DNA of 64,000 nucleotides, from positions 1-64,000 of the forward strand of contig JACIWA010000004.1 in assembly GCA_014361195.1 (NCBI GenBank), in the 5' to 3' direction. Below, piece by piece: positions 45,761 to 54,973 of the stretch. The translations under genes were made by a program, and so were the position numbers. A model generated the notes under the pieces. That model did no database searches and was not told the DNA's origin. It saw nothing but the letters and a program-made list of their open reading frames with translations. How positions within the stretch are numbered: the first letter of the stretch is position 1; every line of letters begins with the position of its first letter. This stretch comes from Thermoplasmatales archaeon (GTDB lineage: Archaea; Thermoplasmatota; E2; UBA202; JdFR-43).

Positions 45761-46165
45761 ATGGAGAAAAAAATAGTTCTTGCAATAGATGATGAAGAAA
45801 CAATGATTGATCTAATAAAGAGAAATCTTGAAAAGATAAGCATACCAGTAATAGTTTATGGAGCAACAAGTGGCGAAGAGGGGCTGGAAAAATACAAAAA
45901 ATTGGCAGAGCAAGGGAAAAAACCCCATCTTGTCTTAATGGATTTAAATCTTACTCAATGGGGAAAGGGAAAGATGGATGGAGTTGAAACCACCAAAAAA
46001 ATCCTGGAATTTGACCCAAATGCAAATATCTATGGCTACACCGCCTGGTTCGCCACCGCCTGGGCGAAAAAACTGGAGGAGGCGGGCGCAAAAAAAATTA
46101 TAGAGAGAACAATTCTGCCATCTGATTTCAGAAAATTAATTGAGGATATATTGAAAGAAATTTAA
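45761..46165 (+). CDS. Response regulator receiver protein, paralogue of 31886
   Basis: A 134-residue receiver with VLAIDDEETMIDLI and phosphoacceptor Asp in LVLMDLNLTQ. The C-terminal half has YGYTAWFATAWAKKLEEAGA and IIERTILP, the same unusual motif as the receiver at 31886. It is 17 bases downstream of the transporter and convergent with the KaiC-like gene (4-base overlap). Its sensor could be the PAS protein at 32316 or one outside the window. Confidence 0.82.
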   Translation: MEKKIVLAIDDEETMIDLIKRNLEKISIPVIVYGATSGEEGLEKYKKLAEQGKKPHLVLMDLNLTQWGKGKMDGVETTKKILEFDPNANIYGYTAWFATAWAKKLEEAGAKKIIERTILPSDFRKLIEDILKEI

Positions 46166-46887
46166 GCAACTCTTCCCATCCTGAAGGCTCCTGTTATTCT
46201 TATTTCATCTTCTTCCAGACTATAGTCTATCCAGTGGCGCGATATAACTTCTCCACAACCCTGGACCCTTAACTGCATTTTTGCTCCTTCCTCTCTAAGC
46301 TCTATAACTCCATCCATAAGATGTTTCATTGTCTGAACTTCAATTTCATCATGCATTCCTCTTGTCATCGAAAACATTGATGTGAGTCCCATTCTACTGC
46401 ATATCCCGCTTAGAACTTGTAAAAATCTGAAAACCGCTTTTGCATCTGAATAAACAATTAAAGTTGATAAGGAATCAAAAACCATTCTTGATAATCCAGC
46501 ATTTTCTCTATGAATTTGAACTATAGATGAAGCAATTTTCTCCCTATTAACAGGACTATCAATAAATATTACTCTCTCATCCTTTTCTTTTAATTCAACG
46601 CTCTGAGAATAAACATCTATATATCTTACCATTCCCTTATTTTCATATTCCCTATAGGAAGGATCTAATTTAACCATTTCATCTCTAATTTCTGAAAATG
46701 AACAATCTGTTAAAACAAAAATAACACCCTCATTATTCTTCAGACCAGATAAAGCAAATCTCCTGAGAATTATTTCCTTTCCTATAAATGGAGGGGCATA
46801 AATAAGAACATTTGTTTTTAATGGTATTCCTCCTTTCAAAAGCTCATCAAGTCTGTCTATGCCAGTGCTAGCAAGCATTCTGAGCAT
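46162..46887 (-). CDS. KaiC-like RecA-superfamily ATPase
   Basis: A 241-residue single KaiC-like domain: STGIDRLDELLKGGIPL, a P-loop-like APPFIGKEIIL, RYIDVYSQ and SRMVFDSLSTLIVY (Walker B region). The P-loop departs from the strict GxxxxGKT (no first Gly, Glu instead of Thr), as in many archaeal KaiC-like signalling ATPases. It is the last gene of the pilus/Roadblock/GTPase operon and overlaps the upstream gene by 20 bases. An alternative start is M4 at 46878. Comparable ArlH, also KaiC-like, sits in archaellum operons. Confidence 0.75.
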   Translation of the reverse strand: MLRMLASTGIDRLDELLKGGIPLKTNVLIYAPPFIGKEIILRRFALSGLKNNEGVIFVLTDCSFSEIRDEMVKLDPSYREYENKGMVRYIDVYSQSVELKEKDERVIFIDSPVNREKIASSIVQIHRENAGLSRMVFDSLSTLIVYSDAKAVFRFLQVLSGICSRMGLTSMFSMTRGMHDEIEVQTMKHLMDGVIELREEGAKMQLRVQGCGEVISRHWIDYSLEEDEIRITGAFRMGRVA

Positions 46888-48025
46888 CCTCCAAAATTTC
46901 TAGCATTTTATCAATTACTTCATAAACATTCTTTCCATCTTTTGCGGAAATTTCTATAATAGGAATATCCTCACTTAATTCCATCCTATTCCTTATTTCT
47001 TCCTTACTCATTGCTCCTTGTATATCTTGCTTATTTGCTAAAATAATGAATGGAATATTAATTTTTGATATAATCTCCTTAGCATAAAAAATATCCTCCT
47101 CTTTTGTAGAGTCAACAACAATAAATATGATGTTTGATGAGCCAATCATTTTATCTGCTATGGGCGAGAATCTTTCGAGACCAGGTAATCCAAAAATATC
47201 AATTCTGTAGCCCTTATAATCCACAGAGCCATACTCAATTCCAACAGTTGCTCCTTTTCTTTCTACAGGTGTAAATTCTTTTGAGACAGATTTTATAAAA
47301 GTTGTTTTTCCAGATTGATGCGGTCCTATAACAGAAACTTTTGGTATATATACTCTTAATCCCTCCGGCTTGAATATTTTGAAATATATTTCTTTATCCT
47401 TGCAGTCATTCCAATCGACTTTTCTTATGCACATTTTTTGTCTTGTAACTATATCCTCAACAAGATTTACTTCTATTATCGCATTAAAAATTCTTTTCAA
47501 TCTGTAAATTATAGATTCTTTGTAAGGCCATGAAATAAAATTATAAAATGAAACAACTTCTTTTTTGCCTAATTCCTTATTCAATTTTTCTATTCCATCT
47601 AAGGTATCTTTTTCCCCACACAAATCCATTATATTTGAAAGGGAATCAAAAATAACAACTCCTCTATCTATTTTTTCTATAATATCTAATAAGACACCTT
47701 CATAGTTTTCTATATCATGTGCTTCATATATTCTATATTTCTCTTCAGAAGGTGCTCCTATTAAAGAAGAGTATGCATCCACAACAATCATTTTGTCGTA
47801 ATTTTCTCTACTCCAGTTAAATTCTCTAAAAACTTTTTCAACATTTTTTGGTGAGGACTCTGAAACAACATATACACCATACAACCCTTTTTCAAGATTG
47901 TGATGAAGGACATGAATTCCTATATTGCTTTCCTCCACTACAGGATCAATATAAAATAAAACAGATTTTCCATAAGGTATGCCATTTAGAAATCTATCAA
48001 GTTTTGATATGCCTGTATCAATCAT
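46868..48025 (-). CDS. KaiC-like domain fused to a COG2229/MglA-type small GTPase
   Basis: A 385-residue protein. The N-terminal ~210 residues are KaiC-like (TGISKLDRFLNGIPYGKSVLF, VVIFDSLSNIMDLCG) but the P-loop is lost (IDPVVEES). The C-terminal ~165 residues form a Ras-like GTPase with G1 GPHQSGKTT (~235-243), GATVGIEYGSV, G3 DIFGLPG, G4 NKQD and G5 SAK, closest to COG2229/MglA GTPases. The start is set at the ATG 48025, which overlaps the Roadblock stop by 8 bases; the annotated ATG could be 48046. The neighbouring Roadblock protein is the likely regulator. Confidence 0.8.
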   Translation of the reverse strand: MIDTGISKLDRFLNGIPYGKSVLFYIDPVVEESNIGIHVLHHNLEKGLYGVYVVSESSPKNVEKVFREFNWSRENYDKMIVVDAYSSLIGAPSEEKYRIYEAHDIENYEGVLLDIIEKIDRGVVIFDSLSNIMDLCGEKDTLDGIEKLNKELGKKEVVSFYNFISWPYKESIIYRLKRIFNAIIEVNLVEDIVTRQKMCIRKVDWNDCKDKEIYFKIFKPEGLRVYIPKVSVIGPHQSGKTTFIKSVSKEFTPVERKGATVGIEYGSVDYKGYRIDIFGLPGLERFSPIADKMIGSSNIIFIVVDSTKEEDIFYAKEIISKINIPFIILANKQDIQGAMSKEEIRNRMELSEDIPIIEISAKDGKNVYEVIDKMLEILEDAQNAC

Positions 48026-48371
48026 TTTTTCCCAGCTCTTTCCCAATCTTCTGCATTAAATCCAAAAATTCTACGTCAGGAGATGTTACAACCGCAATCA
48101 AATAATCTGGCCCTGCGCCTCCTACAACTATCTTCCTGTTCTTTCCCTCAATAACAACAAATTTTGGCACACCTCCTTTTATTTCATCAATTGCTATTTC
48201 TGCGGAGCTTAATATTGTAGCTACCATTGCAGAGAAAACTTCTACATGGAAATTTTCTATATTTGTATATACTGGAAGACCATCTCTGGAAACGATAAAT
48301 ACTCCTTCCACTCCTTTCTCCATTTCAAGCTCCCTTAGTATCTCCTTATAGTTTTTTGTCATACTTTTCAT
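48018..48371 (-). CDS. Roadblock/LC7-domain protein (MglB-like)
   Basis: A 117-residue single-domain protein: KGVEGVFIVSRDGLPVYTNI, VEVFSAMVATILSSAEIAID, FVVIEGKNRKIVVGGAGPDY and LIAVVTSPDVEF fit the Roadblock/LC7 fold. In bacteria MglB is a Roadblock dimer that stimulates GTP hydrolysis by MglA and so sets pilus polarity. It lies 27 bases after the TadC-like gene and directly before the GTPase fusion, which suggests it serves as its GAP or adaptor. Confidence 0.8.
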   Translation of the reverse strand: MKSMTKNYKEILRELEMEKGVEGVFIVSRDGLPVYTNIENFHVEVFSAMVATILSSAEIAIDEIKGGVPKFVVIEGKNRKIVVGGAGPDYLIAVVTSPDVEFLDLMQKIGKELGKND

Positions 48372-48398
48372 ATAACCAGAAAATGGTAATAAAATTTT

Positions 48399-50108
48399 CT
48401 AAATTAATTTGAAGATTAGATAGGTAATGATTATCATTATTGTTGCATGTCTCAAGCCCGCAATAGCTTTTCCCTCAGTTATTGATCCCGCAACAACACC
48501 ACTTCCTATTGCCTGAGCAAGCGCAGTGCATATATAAATAAATTCATATTCTTTCAATGAAATTGATGGGCCCGAGAAGCCCGGTAAGCTTACCGCTTTT
48601 GAAATAAGATTTGATAGGAAAAATTTTGATAATGCTACTATTACCGCAAGAAATACAAAAAATGAAATGTAAATAATCATAAGATAAAGACTCATTTCTG
48701 TCTTTCTTTCATTTTGCAAAATTTTTATTTCCCTCGCATTTGTTGCAGCAGCTTCTATCACATCTGCAGTTTTCCCTCCCGCCTCTGAAGCTTTTATGAC
48801 CATTGTTGTTGTTCTCTGGATGAGAGGTGTTTTTATTCTTTCCCCAAATCTTCTTAGAGCTTCTGTAAAAGGAATACCCCAGGAAATCTGAATTGCCATT
48901 TTTTTAATTTCTGGTGTGAGATGTCCATAGTCGCCTCTTGCCGCCATTTCCACCGCTCTTGCCTCGGTCATTCCCGCCTTTCTTGATTCAGCAAGATCTC
49001 TTAAAAATTCTGGAAATCTTTCTTCCATTGAATTTATTTTCCTATAGTGGAAATATTCATAAAATCCGAAGGGGCCAATAGAAACAAGTATTGCGTATAT
49101 CGCAAAGTCTATTGAATATTCTCTGGAAAGGGATAGTGCTCCTATTGAACTTATTTTTCCAACTTGAAGTAAAATTGCAATTGCAATAAATATTGCAGCG
49201 AAAACCGCTGATATAGACAAAATCACTATTTTTTTAACTGTTTCTACATCATATTTTTCCTTGAGAACACCGCTTTTTTCAGGTAATATAAACAATATGT
49301 ATAAAACTAAGAAAAATAAGAGAAAGATACTCAATCCAATTAATACATATACCCATTTTATTTCTGCTAGAAAAATTCTTGGCTTCGGGAGAACCGCTAT
49401 TATATTGATAGCAATGAAACCGACTATAAGGAAAATTATTCCAAAATACAATATCCTTCTCCTTAAAACAACTTCTTCCTTTACAGTTTTACCACTTTCA
49501 TAAATACCTACTATTGAGTCAATTGGAGAAGGCATTTCTCCTCCTATCATAAGGGACATCATCCAGGAAATCATTGCAAAATTTAAAAGGAAAAGAGGGT
49601 CTGCCATGTTAATGATTATGCGAGGAACATTTCTCGGCAAATGGTAGAGATCTGTCTGGGAGGCAATAACAACAAGAGAGAAAATTATTGAAAATATGAA
49701 GAAAATAAGGTAAGCGGGAGTTCTTTCAACATATGGGATAGAGAGCACTGTATAAAGCATAAGCAACAATACCGCTCCAAGCAATATATTTATTAAAACT
49801 CTTGAGATATTGATGGCAAAAAAAACAATGAATATATTTAGAATTGTCGCAAAAAGTAAAATTATGAATGAAAACAGGGAGGTGAAATAATATTTCCATT
49901 CTCTTTCCTTATATTCATCCGGTATAAATGGCAACATATCTTCCTTTATTTTTCTCTGAACATATGAGAAGAATAAAAATAATATTATCGCGGTAGCGAA
50001 AAGTATGTTTGAAAGAGCATAATATTCAAAAAATCTGGCAATTGTTGATGCAAGTATTATGGAAAAGGAAACAATTAAAGCAAAAATTGTTATTTTCCTC
50101 GCGATCAT
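48399..50108 (-). CDS. TadC/PilC-type pilus platform protein
   Basis: A 569-residue membrane protein. About nine to eleven TM helices; the C-terminal half carries a T2SSF/TadC domain (FPEFLRDLAESRKAGMTEARAVE, RTTTMVIKASEAGGKTADVIEAAA). The N-terminal half is an added TM region. It overlaps no neighbour but begins 2 bases after the 291-residue TadC-type gene. It is one of the two membrane platform subunits for the ATPase at 50954 in a type IV pilus/archaellum-like machine. Confidence 0.85.
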   Translation of the reverse strand: MIARKITIFALIVSFSIILASTIARFFEYYALSNILFATAIILFLFFSYVQRKIKEDMLPFIPDEYKEREWKYYFTSLFSFIILLFATILNIFIVFFAINISRVLINILLGAVLLLMLYTVLSIPYVERTPAYLIFFIFSIIFSLVVIASQTDLYHLPRNVPRIIINMADPLFLLNFAMISWMMSLMIGGEMPSPIDSIVGIYESGKTVKEEVVLRRRILYFGIIFLIVGFIAINIIAVLPKPRIFLAEIKWVYVLIGLSIFLLFFLVLYILFILPEKSGVLKEKYDVETVKKIVILSISAVFAAIFIAIAILLQVGKISSIGALSLSREYSIDFAIYAILVSIGPFGFYEYFHYRKINSMEERFPEFLRDLAESRKAGMTEARAVEMAARGDYGHLTPEIKKMAIQISWGIPFTEALRRFGERIKTPLIQRTTTMVIKASEAGGKTADVIEAAATNAREIKILQNERKTEMSLYLMIIYISFFVFLAVIVALSKFFLSNLISKAVSLPGFSGPSISLKEYEFIYICTALAQAIGSGVVAGSITEGKAIAGLRHATIMIIITYLIFKLI

Positions 50109-50109
50109 T

Positions 50110-50985
50110 TTAAACCTCCGGTGTCATGGAACTTATTGCAAGAGCAAATCCTAAATGGGATATAGGAAGCATTACAAAGGCAATTAAGTAAAGGATTATT
50201 GGGGAGGTAGGTGCGCCCCCGCTAAATGAAATCATAACCGAAAACATTATTATCAGGAAAAGAGGGGCAGCAACCACCACTGTTACATAACTTTCAGCAA
50301 GAATTCCCAAAGTATTTAAAAATTCTTTTTGAATCCTCCTGTTTTCCCTCATATATTCTTCTGCTTTCGCCAGAAAATATCTCTTTAAATCTCCTCCAGA
50401 AGTTATCGTTGTTATTGCTCCCTGCAAAAATTCCTGAAATTTTATTGAAGGTGTTCTATTGGCAGCATTTCTCAATGCGGTTATTATATCTATGTTAAAC
50501 ATATAAATATCCCTGTAAATCCAAGCTGCTTCTTTATGTATTTCTCCATATATCGGTTGCTCCGCAAGGTTTCTGAATATTTCCGCAGGGGTGATGCCCG
50601 CTGTGGCCATTGCTGCTATGAAATTCAAGGCATATGGCAATTTTGCATCTATATCCTTTTTTCTTTTATTTGCTCTGTTTTCAGGAATTGTCAAGGTTAT
50701 GAAATATGTGAGTGCTGCAAGAAGAATTGGAAGAGGAATTATTATTGAGAGAAGTTTCTTGGGCAAGTTCAGGACTGGAGAAAGAAACATAATGTAAATA
50801 AATACAAAAATCAACCCTGCAAGAGAAGAAATCAATGCATTCATCCATGCAAACGCTATATATGCATCCGCTCTTATTTCAAAGAATCCTCTTTCAAGTG
50901 CCCTTTTTATGTATTCGATTTGAGGAGATTTTGATGCCTTTCTTCCAAATATTTTATATGCTAAATTCTGATATTTTGTCAGCAT
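50110..50985 (-). CDS. TadC/PilC-type pilus platform protein, second copy
   Basis: A 291-residue TM protein with a T2SSF-like domain (KDIDAKLPYALNFIAAMATAGITPAEIF, FQEFLQGAITTITSGGDLKRYFLAKAEEYM) and about five TM helices. It and the 569-residue protein correspond to the two halves seen in archaeal PilC/TadB-TadC pairs. The 5' end overlaps the ATPase gene by 32 bases. No prepilin, prepilin peptidase or ArlF/G lies nearby. Confidence 0.83.
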   Translation of the reverse strand: MLTKYQNLAYKIFGRKASKSPQIEYIKRALERGFFEIRADAYIAFAWMNALISSLAGLIFVFIYIMFLSPVLNLPKKLLSIIIPLPILLAALTYFITLTIPENRANKRKKDIDAKLPYALNFIAAMATAGITPAEIFRNLAEQPIYGEIHKEAAWIYRDIYMFNIDIITALRNAANRTPSIKFQEFLQGAITTITSGGDLKRYFLAKAEEYMRENRRIQKEFLNTLGILAESYVTVVVAAPLFLIIMFSVMISFSGGAPTSPIILYLIAFVMLPISHLGFALAISSMTPEV

Positions 50986-52702
50986 TTTTATTCACTTTTT
51001 CCATAACTTTATCAGGACTTTTATAATATGCAGATACTATGCTCCCAAAATCGATATAATTCTTTATTCCTCTTTCAACCATCCATTTTATAACTTCCAC
51101 CCTCCTGTTAAATTCTTCATTTAACTCTCTATCACTCCAATTTCTCTGCTCCGCAATTCTATCCATCACATGACCTTTTCCATAATAATCAAAGCTATCT
51201 TTCCTAGGATTCCATCTGAAAACATCATTTGTTAATAAATCATCTGTAGTGGGATCAATACCAACTACTTCAACAACTTCTTTAATTCTCCTAACCCTCT
51301 TTTTTCCTATCCTCATTAATCCCTGAATTGCTACTATATCTAATGCTTGAAGTTGTATTCGAGGTATGCTTATTGGCTCACCTTCAAGCCTATGAACAAC
51401 AGAAAATATTGAATCCGCATGCATTGTGGAATAAACAGTATGTCCAGTAGCCATCGCTTGGAAAAGAACAACCGCCTCCTGCCCTCTTATCTCTCCTACT
51501 AAGATGTACTCCGGTCGCTGGCGGAGTGCTGCTTTGAGTAAATCAAACATTCCAATTCTTGTATCTTCTTCTCCTGTTACTGTTTCCCTTGTCACGGATG
51601 CAATCCAGTTTGGATGAGGCAAGTTTATTTCCCTCGTATCCTCTATTGAAACTATTTTCATTTGAGGTGGTATAAAGAGGCCAAGGGCATTTAATGTTGT
51701 TGTTTTCCCAGAAGCGGTTCCACCCGCAACTATGGCGGATGCGCCGTGCTCTATCGCAAGCCAGAAATAAGCAGCTAACTCTGCAGAAATTGTGTTGAAT
51801 TCTACAAGATGAGTTGGGGTAAATGGCTCTTCTCTAAATCTTCTTACTGTAAAATTTGAACCCATTGAAGAAACCTCTCGCGCGAGGCATGCTTGTAATC
51901 TCGAACCATCTGGCATTGTTGCATCAAGCAATGGATGGGATATGGAAATATGTCTTCCGCATTTCTGGGCAAGTTGAATTACAAAAGAATCAAGTTCATC
52001 ATCTGTCTGAAAATATACATTCGTTTTAAGTGATTCATAATTTCTGTGATATATGAAAATTGGAACGCCTGCTGAATCGCATGATATATCTTCAATCATT
52101 GGATCGGTCATTAAAACATCTATCTTTCCATAACCAAGAAAATCTCTTATCACATAATACATTATCTTTTCTCTTGTTATATCATCTATCTTTATTGAAT
52201 AATCTCTTATCACTCTATCAACATTTTTTTTCAAATATTCTTTCGCCTCTTCTTCCTTAAATTCAGTCAGCTCTATATCCATTGTTTTAATCAATGTTTC
52301 TTTTATAAAATCTAAAATTTTTCTTTCTTCTAGGGAAAGAGGCGGTTCAATTACTTCATAAATATATTCGTGATTCTTATTGTCGTATAGTATTCTTATG
52401 TAAGAATATGGTTTTTTTATTGGATGAACTTCAACAACCTCTATATAATCTTCTCTGGGTGGAAGAATCTGCACAACTTCTTTTTTTACACCAAAAAGTT
52501 TTTCTATGTCCTCTCCTCTTTTAATCAACCTCAAACTTTCTCTGGCTTTAAAAACTTCTTCATTTTGCTGAATATTTTTTAACTCTTCTATAATTTTCTT
52601 ATTTTTTGATATAATTTCATCAACCTTATATTTACTAAGTAAAAACATTGCTTTTTTCCTTTCTTCTTTTTCTTCCTCTTTAAGCAAATTTTTATTTTTC
52701 AT
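50954..52702 (-). CDS. Type IV pilus/archaellum-type secretion ATPase (TadA/GspE family)
   Basis: A 582-residue ATPase powering pilus or archaellum assembly. A charged N-terminal helical region (~1-100) precedes an N1-like domain and the RecA-like core: Walker A GGTASGKTT (~330), the Asp box EDTREINLPH, Walker B YILVGEIRGQE and ATGHTVYSTMHADS as the His box. The last ~60 residues contain WNPRKDSFDYY and a C-terminal helical tail. It is the first gene of the minus-strand operon, with a promoter interval at 52703-52849. Confidence 0.93.
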   Translation of the reverse strand: MKNKNLLKEEEKEERKKAMFLLSKYKVDEIISKNKKIIEELKNIQQNEEVFKARESLRLIKRGEDIEKLFGVKKEVVQILPPREDYIEVVEVHPIKKPYSYIRILYDNKNHEYIYEVIEPPLSLEERKILDFIKETLIKTMDIELTEFKEEEAKEYLKKNVDRVIRDYSIKIDDITREKIMYYVIRDFLGYGKIDVLMTDPMIEDISCDSAGVPIFIYHRNYESLKTNVYFQTDDELDSFVIQLAQKCGRHISISHPLLDATMPDGSRLQACLAREVSSMGSNFTVRRFREEPFTPTHLVEFNTISAELAAYFWLAIEHGASAIVAGGTASGKTTTLNALGLFIPPQMKIVSIEDTREINLPHPNWIASVTRETVTGEEDTRIGMFDLLKAALRQRPEYILVGEIRGQEAVVLFQAMATGHTVYSTMHADSIFSVVHRLEGEPISIPRIQLQALDIVAIQGLMRIGKKRVRRIKEVVEVVGIDPTTDDLLTNDVFRWNPRKDSFDYYGKGHVMDRIAEQRNWSDRELNEEFNRRVEVIKWMVERGIKNYIDFGSIVSAYYKSPDKVMEKVNKNADKISEFSI

Positions 52703-52849: not shown

Positions 52850-54973
52850 ATGAAAAAATTTGTGATTATGGTAGCGATTGCCTTTCTTTGCTTCATGTTG
52901 CTGAATTATAACAAAGCTAGCGATTTCAGTGTCGTGTATGTTAACGATGATTTTGATGAAAATACTGGTGGATGGAATATAACATGCTTCAATAGCATTC
53001 AGGGAGCAATTAACAAGGTTGCGGAAAATGGAACAGTTTTTGTTTATAATGGAAATTATTCTGAAAATTTGAGTGTAAATAAAAATTTAAAAATTTTTGG
53101 AGAAAATAGAGAGAAAACATTTGTTAATGGAAAAATAAGTATCTATGGGCAAGTAGAAGTTAGGAATATCTCCTCAAAAGGAATTGAAATATTTTCTTCT
53201 TTCAACAAAATAATTGATTGCAATATTTTTGGAGGAAATGGAATATATATTTCAAATTCAACAAATAACACAATTTACAGATGTATTATTTCAAACAATA
53301 ATTTTGGAGTTTACATCAATTCAAGCTATTCAAATAGCATAAGGAGAAATAATATAATAAATAACTCGCAGAATGCCTTTGATAATGGCGATAACATATG
53401 GGAGGAAAATTACTGGAGCGATTTAACAGATGAAACTTATGCTATTCCAGGAGGAGACAATAAGGATTTAAATCCGTCATTGGAGCCATGGGATTTAACC
53501 CTTCCTTCTTTAATTTATACAATTTCCGGAGAATCTGGAAAGAATGGGTGGTATAAGAGCAATGTCACTATAAGCATAGAGGCATTTGATAATGATGAGA
53601 TATCTAAAATAAATTATAGCATAAATGGATTGAGAAATACAACAACAAATTCATCATTTAATATAACATTGGGAGAAGGAATCCATAATATAGAAGTTTA
53701 TGTGTTTGATAAAAATGAAAATTTTATTAAGGAAGAATTTGAAATTAAGGTTGATACCTCGTCCCCTTCCATTGGATATATAATTGATCCCTCACTCCCT
53801 AACGGCAAAAATGGATGGTATAGAAATGTATCAATATCAATAAGTGCGAATGATAGTGTAAGTGGAATGATGGATGGAAGCATTGATTATAATATAAATG
53901 AAGAAGGATGGCAAGAATATAAAGGATTCTTTGCTGTCAGGGAAGAAGGTTATCTAAATATATCGATAAGAGCGATTGATTCTGCTGGAAATGAAAATAT
54001 TACAAGTTTTGAACTAAAAAAAGATTCAACACCTCCCACAATAACCATAGGCAATCTATCAGGTTTATTTATAAAAGATATGTATGAGCTATTTTGGAAT
54101 GCAACTGATAACATAGACACAGATTTAAATGGAAGCATCTCTCTATATTATTCTCCAGATAATGGCACAACATGGGAAATAATAGAGGAAAATATCCAAA
54201 ACAGCGGGAGATATGCATGGAATACTCGATTATTTAATGATTCAAGAAATGGCCTTTTAAAAATTTCAGCGGAAGATGATGCGGGAAATGTTGGATATGC
54301 AATTTCTCAAAATTTTGTTTTAGATAATACACCTCCAGTCGTTGCAATAACTTCTCCAAAGGGAGAGGCATATGGAAAAGATGAATATGGAAATATAATA
54401 ATTGAAATAATATGGAGTGCATTTGATGCCATAGATGATGACTTAAATGGAAGCATAAATATTTCTCTTTATAATGGGACATGGTTTGATATAGAAAAAA
54501 ACTATAACAATAACTTCAGATATACAATAACAAATGCAAGTGATTGGGGAGATGGACAATATACTATAAGAATTTCTGCAAGTGATGATGCGGGAAATAC
54601 AGGATTTGCTTATTCAAATTTCACAATTGACAAACAACCCCCTCAATTAAGAATAATAAAACCTAGCAAAGGGTATTTGTATATAAATATCTTCGGGAAG
54701 GACATAATACCGCCCCTCCAACTGTTTGGATTTTTATATGATGCGATTATAATAGGAAAAATAAAAATCGAGATTTATGCATATGATACTCATTCTGGAC
54801 TGCAAGATGTTAGGATAAAAATAGATGAAGATGAGCCATTCCCTGTCGAATGGCCTTATCAATATTTCTGGGATCCTCCTACAGGAGTGCACAATATAAA
54901 GGTAATTGCAAGAGATAATGCAAAAAATATAGAGGAAGAAGAAATAAGCAGAATATTATGTCTTAACTTTTAG
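52850..54973 (+). CDS. Secreted beta-helix / Ig-like repeat protein
   Basis: A 707-residue protein: signal peptide (KKFVIMVAIAFLCFMLL), right-handed beta-helix of NosD type (~30-190; SIQGAINKVAENGTVFVYNG, NGIYISNSTNNTIYRCIISN), an EENYWSDL linker, four Ig-like repeats (~215-600) and the C-terminal Ig-like module (SKGYLYINIFGKDI, IIGKIKIEIYAYD, WPYQYFWDPPTGVHNIKVI). No TM anchor or PGF-CTERM tail. Likely a surface carbohydrate- or polymer-binding protein. It is divergent from the pilus operon. Confidence 0.75.
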   Translation: MKKFVIMVAIAFLCFMLLNYNKASDFSVVYVNDDFDENTGGWNITCFNSIQGAINKVAENGTVFVYNGNYSENLSVNKNLKIFGENREKTFVNGKISIYGQVEVRNISSKGIEIFSSFNKIIDCNIFGGNGIYISNSTNNTIYRCIISNNNFGVYINSSYSNSIRRNNIINNSQNAFDNGDNIWEENYWSDLTDETYAIPGGDNKDLNPSLEPWDLTLPSLIYTISGESGKNGWYKSNVTISIEAFDNDEISKINYSINGLRNTTTNSSFNITLGEGIHNIEVYVFDKNENFIKEEFEIKVDTSSPSIGYIIDPSLPNGKNGWYRNVSISISANDSVSGMMDGSIDYNINEEGWQEYKGFFAVREEGYLNISIRAIDSAGNENITSFELKKDSTPPTITIGNLSGLFIKDMYELFWNATDNIDTDLNGSISLYYSPDNGTTWEIIEENIQNSGRYAWNTRLFNDSRNGLLKISAEDDAGNVGYAISQNFVLDNTPPVVAITSPKGEAYGKDEYGNIIIEIIWSAFDAIDDDLNGSINISLYNGTWFDIEKNYNNNFRYTITNASDWGDGQYTIRISASDDAGNTGFAYSNFTIDKQPPQLRIIKPSKGYLYINIFGKDIIPPLQLFGFLYDAIIIGKIKIEIYAYDTHSGLQDVRIKIDEDEPFPVEWPYQYFWDPPTGVHNIKVIARDNAKNIEEEEISRILCLNF

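Follow-up and report, generated by a model that had tools for sequence, protein, structure and literature searches.

This report concerns a window of 64,000 nucleotides (nt), i.e., the whole stretch of DNA that was analysed, from a Thermoplasmatales archaeon (contig JACIWA010000004.1, positions 1 to 64,000), and in particular an operon in it. Six open reading frames run on the minus strand from 52702 to 46162 and encode, in this order, TadA, TadC1, TadC2, a Roadblock protein, a KaiC domain fused to a GTPase (KaiC::GTPase) and a second KaiC-fold protein (Table 1); the successive genes are spaced by -32, 1, 27, -8 and -20 nt. A first-pass annotation of this DNA had described a tight operon of a TadA-type ATPase, two TadC-type proteins, a Roadblock protein, and KaiC-fold and GTPase domains. 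This description is confirmed: the frames overlap or leave gaps of at most 27 bp, and every Pfam assignment exceeds the curated cut-off. The conserved unit, however, is formed by the last three genes (Roadblock, KaiC::GTPase and KaiC; hereinafter, the triad), not by the whole operon, and its link to TadA is repeated but optional. The shared operon suggests, without proof, that the triad controls the pilus motor.

Table 1. Features of the operon and of the convergent neighbouring gene (aa, amino acids)
Feature	Position	Strand	Basis and remarks
tadA, type IV pilus assembly ATPase, 582 aa	50954..52702	-	Pfam T2SSE 125.5 bits and PilB3_C 31 bits
tadC1, T2SSF-type platform protein, 291 aa	50110..50985	-	Pfam T2SSF 61.9 bits; 32 nt overlap with tadA
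tadC2, T2SSF-type platform protein, 569 aa	48399..50108	-	Pfam T2SSF 71.5 bits; tadC1 1 nt away
Roadblock/LC7 protein with R-D-G motif, 117 aa	48018..48371	-	Pfam Robl_LC7 62.2 bits
KaiC::GTPase fusion, 385 aa from ATG 48025	46868..48025	-	Pfam KaiC 57.4 bits, then Arf/Ras-type G domain 52.5 bits
Fusion, N-terminal KaiC-fold domain without P-loop	47348..48025	-	Alignment of 103 homologues, Foldseek
Fusion, C-terminal MglA-type GTPase domain	46871..47347	-	G1 GPHQSGKTT, G3 GLPGLERF (catalytic Gln replaced by Leu), G4 ANKQD
Second KaiC-fold protein, Walker A modified to APPFIGKE, 241 aa (238 aa from ATG 46878)	46162..46887	-	Pfam KaiC 88.8 bits
Response regulator, receiver domain only	45761..46165	+	Pfam Response_reg 50.4 bits; convergent with the KaiC gene

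The genome (Thermoplasmatota; 1.25 Mb, 39 contigs, 96% complete) encodes two Pilin_N proteins on contig C1 (a PilA-like one of 161 aa and another of 1709 aa) and one prepilin peptidase, Peptidase_A24, on contig C7; the family search gave no Arch_flagellin match in it. Thus, TadA, TadC, a Pilin_N pilin and a prepilin peptidase of an archaeal type IV pilus are all found genome-wide. For an archaellum, no archaellin was found in the genome, and TadA scores 441 bits against the archaellum ATPase model of NCBIfam (NF058587), below its cut-off of 550. Considering that the pilin and peptidase genes are present and archaellin was not found, we take TadA and TadC to be a type IV pilus motor with its pilins encoded elsewhere in the genome. 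According to a 2016 paper (PMC4858521), archaeal pilin genes commonly stand alone. The earlier remark that no prepilins are nearby is correct for the locus.

The 1709 aa protein (locus L088, 3667-8796), with the archaeal Pilin_N signal at its start, lies beside further giant secreted proteins. Contig C3 encodes a second, divergent TadA-like ATPase (698 aa) and, after it, a 612 aa protein that matches TadC1 weakly (L043, 8821-12745).

The triad across archaea

A search for the fusion in 293 Thermoplasmatota genomes found it in full or nearly full length in 34 of them; the other matches are mostly other KaiC or G domains. The scan of GTDB genomes with alignment A1, of which 80 of 203 loci were retained, yielded fusions from Methanoperedens, ANME-2, Methanosarcinales, Archaeoglobaceae, Alkanophagales, Hydrothermarchaeota and Thermoplasmatota, and the same type of contig scan with the single window protein as the query recovered no loci. 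After removing duplicates, 103 distinct homologues were collected, so the fusion is not a chance open reading frame. We prefer ATG 48025 as its start to TTG 48046 of the mechanically called frame, because the homologues begin with MIETGIP; from this start, it overlaps the Roadblock stop by 8 nt.

A KaiC-like gene lies within 150 bp of the fusion in 96 of the 103 cases, a Roadblock gene within four genes, as is typical of the MglA family, in 95 (directly adjacent in the window), and both partners are adjacent in 88. Among the fusions that do not have both partners, many are close to the end of a contig or have one partner a little farther away. Neighbouring genes of the triad have a median gap of -1 nt. 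In most Thermoplasmatota the genes run Roadblock-fusion-KaiC; elsewhere they run KaiC-fusion-Roadblock.

Two observations concern the history and surroundings of the triad. In the fusion tree, the proteins of the window's taxonomic order (families f1 and f2, f1 being the window's own) group, with moderate support, with those of Methanosarcinales and their relatives and not with the rest of Thermoplasmatota, a hint of lateral transfer. In three loci (L068, L069, L070), the fusion stands in a row with a Roadblock gene, the gene of a small membrane protein and several KaiC-family genes, of which one has an intact P-loop and another a long extension; pilus genes are absent there.

In an incomplete literature search, we came across neither the KaiC::GTPase fusion nor the triad as a unit; a 2017 mBio paper on KaiC hubs may list the fusion. 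The 2014 survey of MglA/Roadblock pairs left out proteins longer than 240 aa and does not mention KaiC (PMC4316618). Roadblock (arCOG02603) and KaiC-family genes near archaeal type IV pilus genes were reported in 2016 (PMC4858521), although the main text of that paper names only an FtsZ-family GTPase and neither a KaiC::GTPase fusion nor a three-gene unit. It is already known that inactivated KaiC domains occur in archaea fused to other signalling domains (cited in PMC5847659). Even without a pilus link, the triad is a widespread archaeal gene set that the literature covered by our search does not describe as a unit.

Active sites of the three proteins

The AlphaFold2 model of the fusion is a confident two-domain one (pLDDT 90), and the best Foldseek match of its N-terminal part is the archaeal KaiC-like protein PH0284 (2dr3; TM score 0.84 on the target). 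None of the 103 homologues has GK[S/T] at the P-loop position of this domain, which typically reads xxPGVExxxxG; the loss of the P-loop proposed initially is thereby borne out. Matches to the GK[S/T] pattern do occur in the domain in 62 cases, but by alignment columns they belong to a GGIPxGKS loop before the first strand, and we rejected them as P-loops.

The second KaiC-fold protein is altered as well. Among the 88 partner proteins in which the Walker A motif was located, 76 have E or D after GK or GR; in the window Glu replaces the Ser/Thr, and the Archaeoglobaceae proteins retain GKS. The canonical GK[S/T] of an active KaiC-family ATPase is thus missing from both the fused domain and its partner in the window. 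The residue that normally holds Mg-ATP being acidic, the label of a second KaiC-like ATPase is unwarranted in its latter half: the KaiC fold stands, and the ATPase is doubtful. The protein is not an ArlH either (32 bits against the NCBIfam ArlH model with a cut-off of 215).

In the G domain, Gly replaces the Asp of the G3 motif DxxG in all 103 homologues. The position of Ras Gln61 is occupied by Gln in 95 of them and by Leu in the window (GLPGL, codon 47179-47177); the eight homologues devoid of Gln all come from family f1 and have L, H, R or Y instead. The residue preceding the G2 Thr is Ala in the window and Thr in most homologues. G1, G4 and the G2 Thr are retained in the window, and, judging by these motifs, GTP binding is probably retained too. 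The first-pass annotation had considered G1-G5 intact, which is true of these three elements but not of the G3 Asp or the catalytic Gln.

The G3 pattern of MglA groups 2-5 is GTPGQ (PMC4316618), and the fused G domain follows this type, without Asp. The other mark of the family, a single domain of 150-240 aa, is not observed: the fusion has 385 aa and an N-terminal KaiC domain, so only its G domain can be called MglA-like, an assignment made from motifs. With this reservation, the GxPG motif and the Roadblock neighbour agree with the proposed MglA-type GTPase (PMC4316618). Groups 2-5, which include the archaeal group 4 and the actinobacterial CvnD/CvnB, share with our system the GxPG in G3 without Asp, the lack of the Arg finger and of the bacterial insertion between G1 and G2, and a Roadblock neighbour with the D-G pair (PMC4316618); the triad differs from them in the KaiC fusion, in the second KaiC partner gene and, in the window, in the lost Gln.

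Stand-alone relatives of the G domain (about 160-170 aa) are encoded in genomes of family f27 with or without the fusion (L045, 70-852; L046, 7131-7942; L047, 7656-8165), and in L045 and L046 they adjoin a small Roadblock gene. They are a possible source of the fused GTPase.

The Roadblock protein of the window is the sole Robl_LC7 match in its genome. Its R-D-G motif is found in nearly all homologues; the Roadblock fold and the conserved Asp-Gly pair of the MglB type are both present. Its AlphaFold2 model (pLDDT 88) is closest to Asgard Roadblock3 and then to MglB structures (MglB 3t1r, E 2.7e-8). The Asgard Roadblock proteins (PDB 9jue, 7f8m, 7yh1; PMC10933270) are its best matches in both sequence and fold, with identity below 30%; a KaiC or pilus link is not reported for them there. 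MglB contributes no active-site residue to its GTPase (PMC11016934). Considering this, and that the window GTPase has neither Gln nor an Arg beside the G2 Thr, it would be hard for Roadblock to restore hydrolysis in this species, and a cycle with Roadblock as the GTPase-activating protein appears doubtful here.

Relation of the triad to the pilus motor

The triad lies beside or near TadA/TadC in nine Thermoplasmatota genomes of six families, with differing gene orders. The order TadA-TadC1-TadC2-Roadblock-fusion-KaiC is found in the window genome (G000) and in G002 and G077 of the same family, as well as in G056 (f2). Roadblock-fusion-KaiC precedes TadA-TadC in G126 (f8), G211 (f9) and G013 (f23); the two blocks converge in G043 (f23), and in G001 (f12) they share a strand, with about 9 kb in between. 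Genes of Pilin_N/DUF7289 lie between the triad and TadA in G013 and G211 (loci L041 and L072), and a Pilin_N gene does so in G001 (L087). On the fusion tree, the TadA-linked state occurs in two clades and requires five or more changes on well-supported branches. The probability that six of 12-13 families are linked by chance is about 1e-6 (a rough binomial estimate assuming three TadA per genome and 20-gene windows). In the complete Thermoplasmatota genomes, the fusion is never found without TadA (P 0.002 under independence of the genomes, an assumption that does not hold).

A number of observations weigh against a role in the pilus. Within f1, the triad is beside TadA in only 3 of the 17 genomes, and at least ten have the two clearly apart, with other neighbours; the linkage is undecided at contig ends in G140, G231 and G261 of f1 and in G081 of f2. 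None of the 68 loci outside Thermoplasmatota contains TadA in the flanking DNA examined (in 50 of them, this DNA extends for 7 kb or more on at least one side). The fusion is absent from all 45 genomes of family f4 of the same class, yet 43 of these carry a close TadA, so pili do not need the fusion; indeed, the majority of TadA-bearing genomes are without the triad. The tree places the fusions of the window's taxonomic order near those from outside Thermoplasmatota, where no pilus link is seen. Finally, the function of the three proteins and their contacts with each other or with TadA are entirely inferred, which limits the interest of the triad as a widespread, testable unit. The check by conserved adjacency proposed in the first-pass annotation thus has a divided outcome: the triad is conserved and the TadA/TadC link recurs, but the link is patchy, and the wording "built-in" is not supported by f1, f4 and the loci outside Thermoplasmatota.

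The same data can be read in another way, with the triad as a general signalling module of archaea that acts on something other than the pilus, and its proximity to TadA as operon drift or co-expression without contact. Besides the loci without TadA outside Thermoplasmatota and in most of f1, this is favoured by the triads that stand alone beside housekeeping genes in Methanosarcinales, Archaeoglobaceae and others. The 0.99 Mb chromosome CP061209.1 (G296) points in the same direction, as it has the triad and no intact TadA. A MinD-like frame of about 98 codons lies there directly before a 5'-truncated TadC1, followed by TadC2 (L176, 7900-9455), and TadA is missing; the truncation behind the MinD-like frame indicates a deletion scar or an assembly fault, and we did not use this chromosome as proof that the triad works without pili. 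Drift, however, poorly explains why the TadA link recurs in two clades, in different orders and twice with pilins. Moreover, 24 of the 25 triad-bearing genomes tested outside Thermoplasmatota have a TadA homologue elsewhere, and the triad may possibly act on TadA in trans; TadA is so common that this co-occurrence is weak evidence of such action. We regard a target other than the pilus as a real possibility that falls well short of even.

Our preferred reading, which we consider evenly poised between right and wrong, is that the triad forms an MglA/Roadblock-type switch scaffolded by KaiC, which would gate the pilus motor in this lineage. KaiC forms hexamers; the two KaiC folds may pair, or form a ring or scaffold that would hold the GTPase. 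Roadblock would bind the GTPase and set or read its nucleotide state. The scaffold might then dock on TadA as ArlH does on ArlI, and permit or block pilus assembly. The docking step has a precedent: ArlH is a KaiC-like protein that binds ATP without hydrolysing it, and its hexamer binds the archaellum ATPase ArlI (PMC8978795). Both systems encode a KaiC fold with a TadA-type ATPase and a TadC-type platform protein; the triad differs in having two KaiC folds, one of them fused to a GTPase, and altered P-loops. In this genome, the missing catalytic Gln would make the GTPase a switch that is slow or locked in the GTP state and is set by binding or exchange, not by hydrolysis.

A signal from the response regulator may be the input to the scaffold. 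In seven loci of f1, the regulator gene and the KaiC gene converge, and genes for response regulators or histidine kinases adjoin the triad or lie near it in L038, L040, L041 and L042; the regulator is a possible input, and its membership in the operon module is uncertain.

It is tempting to extend the proposal to an old archaeal switch, an MglA-family GTPase and Roadblock on a pseudo-KaiC ring docked on TadA, i.e., a GTP-controlled counterpart of ArlH that would join KaiC and Ras-like/Roadblock signalling; we put this forward tentatively and think it rather doubtful. The on/off control of archaeal pili is little understood. If the triad does control TadA, it would be a testable set of three proteins uniting the archaeal KaiC theme with the GTPase/Roadblock theme, which occurs in bacterial motility and actinobacterial conservons, with Roadblock folds also found in eukaryotic Ragulator.

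The degraded nucleotide sites admit a further interpretation, in which the three proteins of this species do not cycle and serve the pilus base as structural components only. The two KaiC sites are altered, and the loss of Gln with its varied replacements is confined to the window's family. On the other hand, the conserved motifs of the window GTPase speak for retained GTP binding, and Rup group 1 GTPases also lack Gln, yet are thought to be regulated (PMC4316618); we hold a purely structural role to be unlikely. As for the on/off or polarity switch suggested at first, conservation and the repeated TadA/TadC link agree with the former, whereas a choice of the piliated pole by the GTPase and Roadblock, as by MglA/MglB in Myxococcus, is very improbable: the MglA-family motif with a Roadblock partner (PMC4316618) and a loosely RomR-like response regulator neighbour in some loci would suit it, but Myxococcus MglA belongs to group 1, with TVPGQ and an Arg finger (PMC4316618), neither of which the window GTPase has, its missing Gln makes a hydrolysis-driven spatial cycle unlikely, the conserved KaiC fusion and the stand-alone triads do not point to polarity, and nothing found bears on it.

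Two minor observations concern neighbouring genes. The gene divergent from tadA (window 52850-54973, plus strand) encodes a secreted protein of 707 aa that contains Ig-like and beta-helix domains, and similar Ig-like repeat proteins recur near the triad in several f1 loci. Near the PilA-like gene on contig C1, two nearly identical two-gene units (128 aa and 68 aa) resembling toxin-antitoxin pairs lie about 3 kb apart (L089, 8864-9447 and 11798-12381).

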